Positions 8,050 to 12,216 of a DNA stretch of 64,000 bases are shown piece after piece (the first letter of the stretch is position 1; each line of letters starts with the position of its first letter). The notes beneath the pieces are model-generated. The model worked only from the letters and a program-made list of their open reading frames with translations, had not been told where the DNA came from and searched no databases. The stretch spans positions 1-64,000 of the forward strand of contig JACRCW010000040.1 in the NCBI GenBank assembly GCA_016218805.1, written 5' to 3'. Source of the stretch: Deltaproteobacteria bacterium. GTDB lineage: Bacteria; Myxococcota; JACRCW01. A program made the position numbers and the translations under genes.

Positions 8050-10620
8050 CTAGCCCACCCCGGCGGCCCGCCGCGGATCCGCGCGGCGCAGCGCGGAGAC
8101 CAGGGCGCCCAGCTCCGGCCCACCCTCGACGTGACCCGCCGCGCGGCGGGCGTTGTCCAGGGACTCGGCCATCTCGCGCGCGCTGATGAAGCGGTCCTCC
8201 GGGTGCGGAGCCAGCGCCCGCTCCAGCACCTGGCGCAGGGCGGCATGCAGGCCGCGCGGCAGGGGCGCGGCACGGCACTGCTGGTGCGCGGCCAGGACCT
8301 CGCCGTCGTCACGGCCCTCCACGGGGAAGGCGGGTTCCCCCGTCAACAGCAGCTGCAGCACGCACCCCACGGCAAACACGTCACTGCGGGCATCCAGCAC
8401 ATCCAGCCGCGCCTGCTCGGGTGAGAGGTAACCGGCGCTGCCCACGACATCCAGCGGCGGTGCATCCACGTGCGTGAACACGCACGCGCCGAAATCCGTG
8501 ATGCGCACCGTCCCGTCCAGGCCCAGCAGGACGTTGCGGGGCGCCAGGTCACGGTGGACCAGGCCCAGCGCGCCCGCCGCTCCGCGCGCGCGGTGCGCGT
8601 GTTCCAGCCCCAGCAGCGCCTCCATCACCACATGGGTCCACACCCCCGGGGCCACGGTGACGCCGCGGCGCCGCGCCGCCTGCCACGCCCGCTCCAGGTC
8701 CAGGCCGTCCACCAGCTCCATGACCAGGAACGGCTCGCCCGCCGCTTCGCCACGGGCCAGCGCGCGGACCACGTTGGGATGGTTGAGCCGCTGCATCACG
8801 TCGCTTTCGCGCATGAACCCGGTGACCGCGGGGATGTCCATCTGGACCTCGGGCCGCAGGCGCTTCACCACCACCAACTCGCCGGTTGTCAGCGCGCGCG
8901 CGCGGTAGACCTCCGCGGCGCCGCCCACCGCCAAGCGGTCCAGCAGTTCGCAGCCGCCCACCACGGGGCCGCGCGGTGCACCCGCCGGCGCCGGGACCGG
9001 GGGTGGCGTCAGCGGGGGCGGCGTCAGCGGCGCGGGCAGCGGCGGCGGCCGCCGGACGCGCGCGGCCACTGCGGCGCGGGCGTCCTCCCAGGCCTGCAGG
9101 TGCCGGGCGTGGACCTCGCCGTCCAACAGCGTGCGGGCGGCGGCGTCCCGCCGGGTGCGGATGACCTCCAGGGCCACGCGTGCCGGGCCGGTGCGCAGGC
9201 CAGCGTCCAGGGCCGGCGGACCAAACTGTCCGCGGTGCGCCTCGGCCGCCGCGTCCACTTCCTCCGGGCCCGCCTGCTCCCCCACGCCCAGCACGGCCCA
9301 CGCCGGCGCGCGGTGGGTGCGCAGGAATTCCTCCGCCACCCGGTTGCGGACCGCGCGCTCCTCCGCCGCCGTGGACTCACCCACCCAGTCCCGCCCGTCC
9401 TCCGGCGTCCCCACCACCGGCCGCTCCTCCAGCCCACCGCCCGCGGAGCACAGCAGCGCCACCCACTGCCGGCGCTCTGCACCCAGGGCGGCGCTCAGCA
9501 TGGCTCCCACGTTGGCCGCGGGGAACAGCGTGGGTGGCAGCTGGCAGGCGGCGCCACCTTCGGCGGCCACCGCGCGCAGCAGCGTGGGCACGACGGCCGG
9601 GATGCTGGTGGCCCGGGGGGGAGCCGCGCACCGGCGCGCCAGTTCCGCTTCCACCTGGTCCTCCGGCAGCACGTGGAGCACCGCCTGCTGGATGGCCATC
9701 ACCGGGTCCAACCGCAGCGTGGCGTGCAGGTCCGCCAGCGCGTCGTACGCGGTCATGTCATGCACGCCGTCCCACGCGCACAGCGCCTCCAGGATGATCC
9801 GCCGGGCATGGCGCTGCACCGCCACCGCCACCACCCAGGGCTCCACACCCGCCAGGTGCGCCACGGCAAGCGGGAAGGGCTGGTCCTGCTCGCGGGCCAG
9901 CCGCGCGGCCGCGGCCACCTGCGCGGGTGCCAACATGCAGGCGGTGCGCAGGGCGGCGGCCAGGCTCTCATCCGGCACGCTGCTCTCCGCGGCGACCAGC
10001 AGGCCGTCACGCACCACCAGGCGCCGCACGCCCGCGGCATCCCGCACGTCAACCTGGCAGTCCGCCCGGCGGGCGCGCGCCGCCAGCAGCAGCGCCGCCA
10101 GTGCACCCTCCGCGTTGGCATGCGCCGCCCCCGGGCCCTCCGCCGCCAGCGCGTCCGCCAGGTCGCCCGGTTCGGTGTGGCGCTCGTCGTGGTTGGGCTC
10201 ATGAGCCGCACCTCCGGCCGGCGGCCCGCTGGCCGCCTCCTCCATGCAGCGGTCCAGCACGCCCATCATCTCCCGGAGTGCCAGCGGTTTTCCCAGCGCG
10301 GCCTGGACGCCCAGCCGGTCGCGAATTTCGTCCGCGCGGCCGGGTGACACGGACGCCGAAGCCACCACCACCGGCACCGCCGCGCCGCGCGGGTGACTGC
10401 GGATCAGGCGCACCAGCTCGCCGCCGGTCATCCACGGCAGCATCAGGTCAGACAGGACCAGGTCCGGGACGTCCTGCTGGAACATCTCCCACGCCTGGCG
10501 GCCGTCTGACGCCCGGCGCACCGTCACGCCCTGCGCGGTCAGGTAGCGGCTGATGAGCAGCGCGGTGTCGGCATCATCCTCAACAACGAGGACCGAGTAG
10601 CCGCGCGTGGGGTTGACCAT
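8050..10620 (-). CDS. Receiver / DUF4388-like / J-like / Ser-Thr protein kinase fusion
   Basis: 856 residues from ATG 10620 (MVNPTRGYSVLVVEDD); the frame extends to 10740 without domain support. Domain order: a CheY-like receiver at about 8-125 (VVEDDAD, phospho-acceptor Asp in LVLSDLMLPW, Lys in ALGKPL); a DUF4388/PATAN-like segment at about 160-350 (LVVRDGLLVAAESS ... LAAALRTACML); a degenerate J-domain-like stretch (WAVLGVGEQAGPEEVDAAAE ... IRTRRDAAARTLLD); a Pro-rich linker; and a Ser/Thr kinase domain. The kinase looks active: VVVKRLRPE lysine, HRDLAPRN catalytic loop, DFGA and SPEQ. DUF4388 next to a J-like module is a known myxobacterial arrangement. It is cytoplasmic, with no TM segment seen. 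It links two-component input to Ser/Thr phosphorylation and is followed after one base by the lipoprotein gene. Confidence 0.88.
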   Translation of the reverse strand: MVNPTRGYSVLVVEDDADTALLISRYLTAQGVTVRRASDGRQAWEMFQQDVPDLVLSDLMLPWMTGGELVRLIRSHPRGAAVPVVVASASVSPGRADEIRDRLGVQAALGKPLALREMMGVLDRCMEEAASGPPAGGAAHEPNHDERHTEPGDLADALAAEGPGAAHANAEGALAALLLAARARRADCQVDVRDAAGVRRLVVRDGLLVAAESSVPDESLAAALRTACMLAPAQVAAAARLAREQDQPFPLAVAHLAGVEPWVVAVAVQRHARRIILEALCAWDGVHDMTAYDALADLHATLRLDPVMAIQQAVLHVLPEDQVEAELARRCAAPPRATSIPAVVPTLLRAVAAEGGAACQLPPTLFPAANVGAMLSAALGAERRQWVALLCSAGGGLEERPVVGTPEDGRDWVGESTAAEERAVRNRVAEEFLRTHRAPAWAVLGVGEQAGPEEVDAAAEAHRGQFGPPALDAGLRTGPARVALEVIRTRRDAAARTLLDGEVHARHLQAWEDARAAVAARVRRPPPLPAPLTPPPLTPPPVPAPAGAPRGPVVGGCELLDRLAVGGAAEVYRARALTTGELVVVKRLRPEVQMDIPAVTGFMRESDVMQRLNHPNVVRALARGEAAGEPFLVMELVDGLDLERAWQAARRRGVTVAPGVWTHVVMEALLGLEHAHRARGAAGALGLVHRDLAPRNVLLGLDGTVRITDFGACVFTHVDAPPLDVVGSAGYLSPEQARLDVLDARSDVFAVGCVLQLLLTGEPAFPVEGRDDGEVLAAHQQCRAAPLPRGLHAALRQVLERALAPHPEDRFISAREMAESLDNARRAAGHVEGGPELGALVSALRRADPRRAAGVG

Positions 10621-11010
10621 CCGGAGGGGCTCCCAAAGTCCGCGCCACGGGCCGCGAACCGGACGGCGCGAGCATAGGAGCGTGGCCCCGCTGCCGCCAC
10701 CGGCCTGCCCGGGCGCTTGCTCCATCGTCACGGACCGCATTGGAATGAAGGGCGGCGCTGTGCAGGGCCAGGCTGTTGTCAGCGGCCGCCGCCCAGGCGT
10801 CTGTGGGACCGCACCCGTGCCTCAGAGAGCGCCTCCGAGTCGACAACCTGGTTCCTTGACCTCCGTGAACATTGCGGCGCGGCGGCGTGGGTTTCGCTGC
10901 AATGCGACGCCGACAGGAACGGACCACCAACGGGGATGCCCGCATGCGAATCCATGTTCCGCTCCTGACCCCACGCGGCGAGGAACCCGCCTGGCTCCGG
11001 ATCGTTTTCC
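10621..11010. other. 390-bp gene-free stretch
   Basis: No reading frame here has a ribosome-binding site together with plausible protein composition. The first 100 bp should contain the promoter of the kinase/lipoprotein operon (minus strand). The remainder holds no hairpin or repeat I can support, and it leads directly into the 22-bp array. Confidence 0.4.
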
Positions 11011-11359
11011 GCTACCCCCGCGCAGCCATCCGGTGACCGCCCGGGGCAGCATCCGTGGGCCCTGGCGACCGCCCGGTGACGGACCCGGACCCCATCCGTG
11101 CCCCAAGGCGACCCCTTCCGTGACCCCAGGCGCCCCGTCCGTGACCCCCGGCGACGGCCTGGTGACCCCACCTCCACCTACAGGTGACGCCCTTCCACCT
11201 ACCTGGTGACCCCCACTTGCCAGGGCGGTGACCCCCATCAGCCCCGCCGGTGACCCCCGCCTACCCCCACACATGACTCCACCCACCTACATCCTGCCCC
11301 CGGAACCAGGCACGGGTGACCCCCGGAAACCCCTCCGGTGAGGCCAAGTTGCACCCGTG
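11011..11359 (+). repeat. Degenerate 22-bp tandem array headed by GTGAC(C)CC, about 15 units
   Basis: The word GTGAC or a close variant recurs at 11033, 11055 (GTGGG), 11076, 11098 (GTGCC), 11120, 11141, 11162, 11184, 11206, 11228, 11250, 11273 (ATGAC), 11294 (CTGCC), 11316 and 11338 (GTGAG). The steps are 21-23 bp. A weaker unit (GCTACCCCC) starts at 11011. The unit consensus is GTGACCCCC plus about 13 variable, C-rich bases. The period is not a multiple of three, so this is not a coding repeat, and the units are too divergent for a recent minisatellite. The minus strand carries GGGGG runs once or twice per unit, which could favour G-quadruplexes. The array ends about 55 bp before the ATG of the next gene. 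Its role is unknown. Confidence 0.75.
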
Positions 11360-11415: not shown

Positions 11416-12216
11416 ATGGCAACGAACGTGGAGGAGTTGAACACCCTGGAACTGTATTTCTTTGGCCCGCTGGCACTGGTGGTCCTGCGGCGCCACAAAA
11501 CCGTCATTGGCGCCCTGATGATCGCCGAGGGAACCGCTCAGTGGCTGGCGGACATTGAACGGTCCGTTCCCCAGACCCGGGACGCGGTGGAGAAACAGAT
11601 CAAGGAGGAAGCGGACGTCACCGCGGCGCTGGCGGCGGCCGGGGTGCACCTGGAGAAGTTGGGGCCGTGGCGGCGGGTGATTGAGCGGACGGCGTTTTCC
11701 ACCAAGGACAAGACGCGCCGAGAAGAACTGCTCAAGGTGGCGGGCTACGGCCTGGGGCAGGTTGAGTCCCCCAAGGAAGCCAAAGAGTTCCTGGTGAACG
11801 TCAAACCGCTGGTGGAAATGCGGAAGGACATGCTGCTGGGGCGGGGTCTGGCGCCTGCGGTGGTGGACTTCCCGATCAACACCTTGGCCGCCATGGAGTC
11901 GGAATCAGGCAACGTGGCCAAGGAGAAGGCGGAGGCGGCGCTGGCCGGCACTCACACGCGCAAGTGCCGGGCGGAGTTGAGCTCCATGTTGGACCGCGCG
12001 GATGACTCCGTGGAGATCCTGGTGCAGCAGTCCCTGTTCCTTGACCCGGCGCAGCGCAAGGCGGTGGAGGACCTCAGCGCGGAGTGGTTGGCGGCGCTGA
12101 ACGAGGCGCGGGTGCTCACGCGCAAGCGCGTGGAGCAGGGGGACGTTCCGCCCAGCCTGGTGGACGGCCCCTCCACCACTCCACCCGCCACCACGCCCGC
12201 GGGTACGCCGGGCTGA
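11416..12216 (+). CDS. Hypothetical cytoplasmic protein downstream of the 22-bp array
   Basis: 266 residues from ATG 11416, preceded by GAGGGGAG (11401-11408). Upstream codons in this frame lie inside the array and are not credible as protein. The sequence is helical and charged (EELLKVAGYGLGQ, EAKEFLVNVKPLVEMRKDML), with no signal peptide and no membrane segment. One semi-hydrophobic N-terminal patch (LELYFFGPLALVVL) is short. The C-terminus is a Pro/Thr tail (PSTTPPATTPAGTPG). I do not recognise a family. Its promoter must lie in or just after the 22-bp array, so the array may regulate it. Confidence 0.65.
   Translation: MATNVEELNTLELYFFGPLALVVLRRHKTVIGALMIAEGTAQWLADIERSVPQTRDAVEKQIKEEADVTAALAAAGVHLEKLGPWRRVIERTAFSTKDKTRREELLKVAGYGLGQVESPKEAKEFLVNVKPLVEMRKDMLLGRGLAPAVVDFPINTLAAMESESGNVAKEKAEAALAGTHTRKCRAELSSMLDRADDSVEILVQQSLFLDPAQRKAVEDLSAEWLAALNEARVLTRKRVEQGDVPPSLVDGPSTTPPATTPAGTPG

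Follow-up and report, generated by a model that had tools for sequence, protein, structure and literature searches.

Intergenic tandem arrays with a common two-turn period but differing sequences in the genome of a Deltaproteobacteria bacterium

Short repeats spaced about two helical turns apart are known from several systems. Iterons, among them the 22-bp repeats of R6K and those with RK2-type spacing, are direct repeats of about two turns, an arrangement in which the protein sites lie on one face of the DNA, and the ends of Mu/Tn7-type transposons carry serial 22-bp transposase sites. Further points of comparison are tandem operators and helically phased upstream activating sites, bacterial minisatellites (variable number tandem repeats, VNTR), and repetitive extragenic palindromic elements and bacterial interspersed mosaic elements (REP/BIME) with their REP-associated tyrosine transposases (RAYT, TnpA-REP). 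Here we describe a tandem array at 11011–11359 of a 64-kb stretch of DNA (the window) from the 6.4-Mb draft genome, in 170 contigs, of a Deltaproteobacteria bacterium of the phylum Myxococcota. Our results show that it is one of roughly twenty intergenic arrays found so far in this genome that have two-turn spacing, not sequence, in common. Coordinates are window positions on the + strand unless stated; C and L labels (e.g., C19, L054) denote sequences other than the window.

The window array is a true, diverged tandem array. Self-identity of 11011–11359 at lag 22 was 0.489, whereas 500 dinucleotide shuffles gave 0.324 (z 6.7; reached by 0/500), with secondary peaks at lags 43, 44, 65 and 66, and this was the top lag-22 region of the whole window. 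Tandem Repeats Finder (TRF) independently recovered 22-bp units at 11088–11267. The word GTGAC occurs ten times (starting at 11033, 11076, 11120, 11141, 11162, 11184, 11206, 11228, 11250 and 11316), where shuffles expect 1.1, and its start positions are best fitted by a period of 21.75 bp (R=0.988, reached by no shuffle). With degenerate heads (RTGVS), 14 units follow each other at steps of 21–23 bp, one head being absent. The original prediction of about fifteen units of 21–23 bp, with GTGAC words two turns apart, thus stands with corrections: the period is 21.75 and not exactly 22 bp, the last head lies at 11338, where it reads GTGAG, and the heads are GTGAC(C), with complete GTGACCCC in only 7 units.

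Since its steps vary between 21, 22 and 23 bp, the array is not a coding repeat, in agreement with the prediction. A structured RNA was rejected as well, as Rfam gave no match and folding z-scores were −0.9 and +1.0 relative to shuffles. The array is not a CRISPR array either: whole units measure 21–23 bp, only the short head is kept, and there is no repeat of 24–48 bp with spacers. No inverted repeats flank the array, and no terminator-like site was found. Searches of the locus against plasmids (DNA), phages (protein), Rfam, PHROGs (P0001), PADLOC and NCBIfam gave no match with a meaningful E-value, and no report describing such arrays was found in the open-access literature.

A sample of ~0.92 Mb, drawn from this genome regardless of arrays, was scanned for periodic non-coding stretches. 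This yielded ten more intergenic arrays (C1, C8, C10, two in C13, a second one in C19, C20, C21, C31 and C42), with periods of 21–22, 42–44 or 88 bp and mostly unrelated sequences; most were recovered by TRF. Across 22 array segments, which represent 16 sequence groups, fundamental periods lie between 20.75 and 22.25 bp in all but one; a 21-bp period may also stem from missed coding sequence, and the arrays were inspected by eye against crude gene calls. The exception is C20, which repeats at 43 bp with no clear half-period signal. Furthermore, C13b runs mainly on 42 bp, and periodicity is weak in C54 and the second C19 array. Independent support for the period comes from C35, C76, C54 and the ten arrays of the sample; C45 and C96 were found via the word CCTACAT. 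C19, C67, C108 and C163 came from a search pattern in which the spacing is fixed, and similarity to C163 led to C128 and C162; these six are therefore no independent evidence for the period. Some other non-coding repeats in the sample had periods of 6, 16 and 26 bp (TRF), and in the aggregate intergenic autocorrelation lags divisible by 3 were dominated by missed coding sequence. What the original prediction had overlooked is that the window array is a member of a class of two-turn arrays which spans the genome and comprises many sequences.

The window array lies directly upstream of a gene at 11416, and a diverged paralog of this gene likewise has an array directly upstream. The paralog, at C35:62765 with 29% identity to the 266-aa product, was found through a protein search that ignored repeats, and the 22-bp array upstream of it (z 8.0 at lag 22, 6.4 at lag 44) has the unit CCGGAAGCGCTCTGCAGACCCC, unlike the window unit. 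Another 22-bp array of the CCGGAAGCGCTCTGCAGACCCC kind adjoins a C-terminal fragment of the gene in C76, likewise a result of the protein search; C97, with gene fragments only, has no array. Two lineages of the gene family thus have an upstream two-turn array in common, not its sequence.

Two more arrays found by DNA search on two other contigs of the genome, C19:51157–51415 (90% identity) and C67:39580–39812 (84%), are colinear with the window array unit by unit. The block common to the window and C19 spans the array to just beyond the stop codon of the gene. In the C19 copy, the promoter and first ~60 codons of the gene are swapped for ~0.9 kb of other DNA, and the array has ~3 units more. 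The C67 array stands upstream of what reads from its sequence as an Hsp70-like gene, not of an 11416-type gene. The prediction that heads are kept over tails was borne out in the comparison with C67, in which 11/98 head positions (11%) and 54/201 tail positions (27%) had changed (Fisher p=0.0017). The comparison with C19 (heads 9/108, tails 26/208) was not significant. The 11416 gene and its C19 copy differ by a synonymous divergence (dS) of 0.121 and a non-synonymous divergence (dN) of 0.036. The numbers are too small to argue for a suppression of indels compared with substitutions.

The word CCTACAT links arrays of different sequence. It has 21 sites, on both strands, in a 1.1-Mb sample, and the six with the strongest preceding 21/22-bp periodicity coincide with the ends of six arrays, which belong to three sequence types. 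Genome-wide, 8/35 sites of RCCTACATY are at arrays, including C45 and C96, both of which were discovered through the word; in C96 it comes before the array. The remaining sites are mostly coding or in array-free intergenic DNA, and many arrays lack the word.

Compared with the systems introduced above, the arrays show partial likenesses. Iterons differ in that the arrays described here occur at many loci and with differing sequences; the four neighbouring proteins searched against Pfam showed no Rep domain, although the genome was not searched for Rep. In contrast to Mu/Tn7 ends, the locus has no transposase in the neighbouring genes scanned, no inverted ends and many more units. Tandem operators and helically phased upstream activating sites share the upstream position, the heads on one face and the recurrence at a diverged paralog, but the window array has 14–15 sites in strongly degenerate units, and sibling arrays also lie between convergent genes. 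Minisatellites likewise consist of tandem units that vary in number between copies, whereas here the period is concentrated at 21–22 bp over unrelated sequences. REP/BIME are also short intergenic repeats, at times tandem, and a Y1_Tnp gene lies near the palindromic C54 array. However, the window array was rejected as a REP/BIME unit because it has no palindrome, no inverted repeat of ≥12 bp and no GTAG/CGTC tag, its heads being GTGAC; moreover, the arrays of this genome have period, not sequence, in common.

Outside the source genome, no counterpart of the window array was found in the genomes of its phylum that were searched. These comprise one genome of the same class, the others being of the same phylum only. 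Among 58 genomes, the array DNA and the spaced-head pattern matched the source genome alone; conservation in relatives, named in the original prediction as a check, was thus not supported, with no copy in the 57 others. The same-class genome, of which 328 kb were scanned, showed no two-turn array, whereas an equal density would give ~3.6, and hence the class may be confined to the source lineage. A scan of a species collection for three GTGACCCC heads at 21–23 bp returned at least 118 stretches, many in Sinomonas and others in Nocardioides, Lujinxingia and a Verrucomicrobiaceae metagenome-assembled genome; as the pattern fixes head and spacing, these show only that similar arrays exist.

At a probability of roughly 40%, our preferred explanation is that the arrays are multi-site platforms in helical phase to which a DNA-binding protein attaches; the copy in the window would act upstream of the presumed 11416 promoter. 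The arrays share a two-turn period, but not RNA structure, coding potential or a k-mer, from which we infer a constraint at the DNA level. Each unit would be a site for the protein, and two-turn spacing would put the sites on one helix face, allowing cooperative binding and an extended nucleoprotein patch. In the window, the patch would lie upstream of the presumed promoter, with CCTACAT near its gene-proximal end, and would act as an upstream regulatory element for the 11416 gene, perhaps also for the kinase gene that diverges from it. Units would be won and lost by slippage, and the sequence would drift while the spacing stays.

Several observations weigh against such platforms. No binding protein is known for the arrays; the tandem operator proposed in the original prediction fits the position and the array upstream of the diverged paralog, and we infer both the protein and its function. 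No sigma-70 promoter was recognised, C19 retains its array despite the loss of the gene's promoter and start, and head conservation is significant in only one pair (C67). No k-mer core occurs in all arrays (the best, ACCCCC, is in 8/16, p ~0.013), which makes one sequence-specific factor awkward. Finally, arrays lie between divergent genes (window, C35), convergent genes (C20, C19b, C163, C162 and C96) and codirectional genes (C67, C108, C10, C21, C31 and C42), and hence not every array can be an upstream activating site.

An alternative explanation, which we rate nearly equal to the platforms, is that the arrays are functionless dispersed minisatellites, tolerated between genes and seeded, multiplied and lengthened by slippage or by REP/BIME-like mobilisation, with the 21–22 bp set by the generating mechanism and not by selection. 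Copies move on their own, without the gene, in C67 and together with remnants of it in C19 and C76, the window and C19 differ by ~3 units, and the divergence of the array from its C19 copy (8–12.5%) is near the dS of the gene. Hairpin units in several arrays (C108, C162, C8 and C20), and a 4x22 palindrome array ~300 bp from a Y1_Tnp (RAYT-type) gene, would also fit. The genome has two Y1_Tnp matches above the Pfam cut-off, one of them near an array and none linked to the window array; C108, C162 and C8 are hairpin-rich without GTAG/CGTC tags. Yet the window array has no palindrome, tag or flanking inverted repeats. The better-kept heads in the comparison with C67, and the recurrence of a rare word at arrays of differing sequence, likewise argue against minisatellites. 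A mechanism that would set unrelated units at a spacing of two turns is not known to us, which also counts against them.

It is unlikely that the arrays are cis-elements of transcript 3' ends, involved in termination or in the insulation of convergent genes, with the window copy as a displaced member. The five arrays between convergent genes favour this possibility, as do the Sinomonas arrays with 21–22-bp GTGACCCC units, 19/31 of which, among the matches listed, lie between convergent genes, compared to 47/187 neighbouring pairs. Against it stand the window and C35 arrays between divergent genes, the missing terminator-like site and the fact that RNA folding is not a feature common to the arrays; the Sinomonas sequences, moreover, may be unrelated. 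We consider it less probable still that the orphan gene and its array constitute a cassette, mobile or self-recognising, in which the helical protein binds its own array. The block in common with C19, and the occurrence of an array with both diverged gene lineages, would be expected of a cassette, but no DNA-binding domain or solved relative of the 266-aa protein was found, flanking inverted repeats are absent, and most arrays have no such gene adjoining. A G-quadruplex element, also raised in the original prediction, would fit the C5 runs of several units, which read as G5 runs on the − strand. Its probability is negligible, as only 1 motif with loops of ≤7 nt was present, whereas shuffles had 2.0, and ~17 nt separate the G5 runs.

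The features of the window locus are listed in Table 1. For the 266-aa protein, Pfam, NCBIfam, PHROG and PADLOC gave no significant match, and its predicted fold had no PDB match at E≤0.001. Its gene family matched the source genome alone in searches that covered 195 genomes of the phylum as well as genome_contigs and viral_contigs. A dispersed repeat with the palindrome AAAGTGTCTCATTNAATGAGACACTTTC adjoins fragments of this family at C97:20290–20640 and C108:5783–5959.

Table 1. Positions of the array, its parts and the adjoining genes in the window (pLDDT, predicted local distance difference test; ORF, open reading frame).
Feature	Position	Strand	Remarks
Tandem array	11033..11359	+	~14–15 units of 21–23 bp (fitted 21.75), head GGTGACCCC/CCGTGACCC, diverged tails
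Sub-block of 21-bp units, CCGTGACCCCCGGCGACCCTT type	11119..11161	+	~3 units longer in C19 copy (alignment)
Rare word CCTACAT	11286..11292	+	Marker of arrays at eight loci of the genome
Last two heads (GTGACCCCC, GTGAGG)	11316..11342	+	3' of CCTACAT
Array and gene block common with C19	11049..12221	+	Array 90–91%, gene 94% from codon 62 on
Orphan gene, 266 aa	11416..12216	+	Predicted all-helical, mean pLDDT 85; travels with array
Response regulator receiver and Ser/Thr protein kinase, 896-aa ORF	8053..10740	−	Divergent neighbour

Other repeats were seen in passing. A Y1_Tnp (RAYT-type) gene accompanied by an 87–88-bp (4x22) array of palindromes (CAGGTCCAGACCTG / CCACTGTCCGGAGTGG) was noted at C54:78377–78601 and L297:2165–2420, and very regular 22-bp hairpin arrays (e.g., TGTGA-CCCCC-TGCCCGA-GGGGG) occur at L021:4845–5138, L020:3330–3545 and L101:6320–6500. 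At L054:10890–11210 (C1), two 21-bp half-arrays are opposed, GCGCGCCGGTAACGCGGGGAA followed by GTTACCGGCGGCCCTCGGCAT, with the junction CCGGTAACCGTTACCGG. In Sinomonas, L239 and other loci hold dozens of 21-bp GTGACCCCGCAACGCAGGGAG-type arrays, some as opposed halves between convergent genes. L153 (G037, another genome of the phylum) has a strong array with a 14-bp period at 887–986 and 2124–2423.

Tandem arrays are usually recognised by their sequence, whereas here many unrelated sequences of one genome keep a two-turn period. This shared period indicates one of two things: an architectural or regulatory DNA-binding system so far unrecognised, or a mechanism that generates repeats at a fixed step of 21–22 bp; to our knowledge, neither has been described. 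It is conceivable, though doubtful, that some bacteria have genome-wide intergenic nucleoprotein platforms defined by the two-turn period and not by sequence, with tens of arrays per genome and many unrelated units, some marked by CCTACAT, which a face-binding and possibly filament-forming protein holds in phase; the analogous 21–22-bp arrays at the ends of convergent genes in Sinomonas and others would be independent cases. Some arrays are located at contig ends (C128, C8), and therefore arrays may also explain assembly breaks. The pairs of array and gene offer a direct biochemical entry. Our results suggest that the cell keeps the spacing itself, probably for the sake of a protein bound to one helix face.
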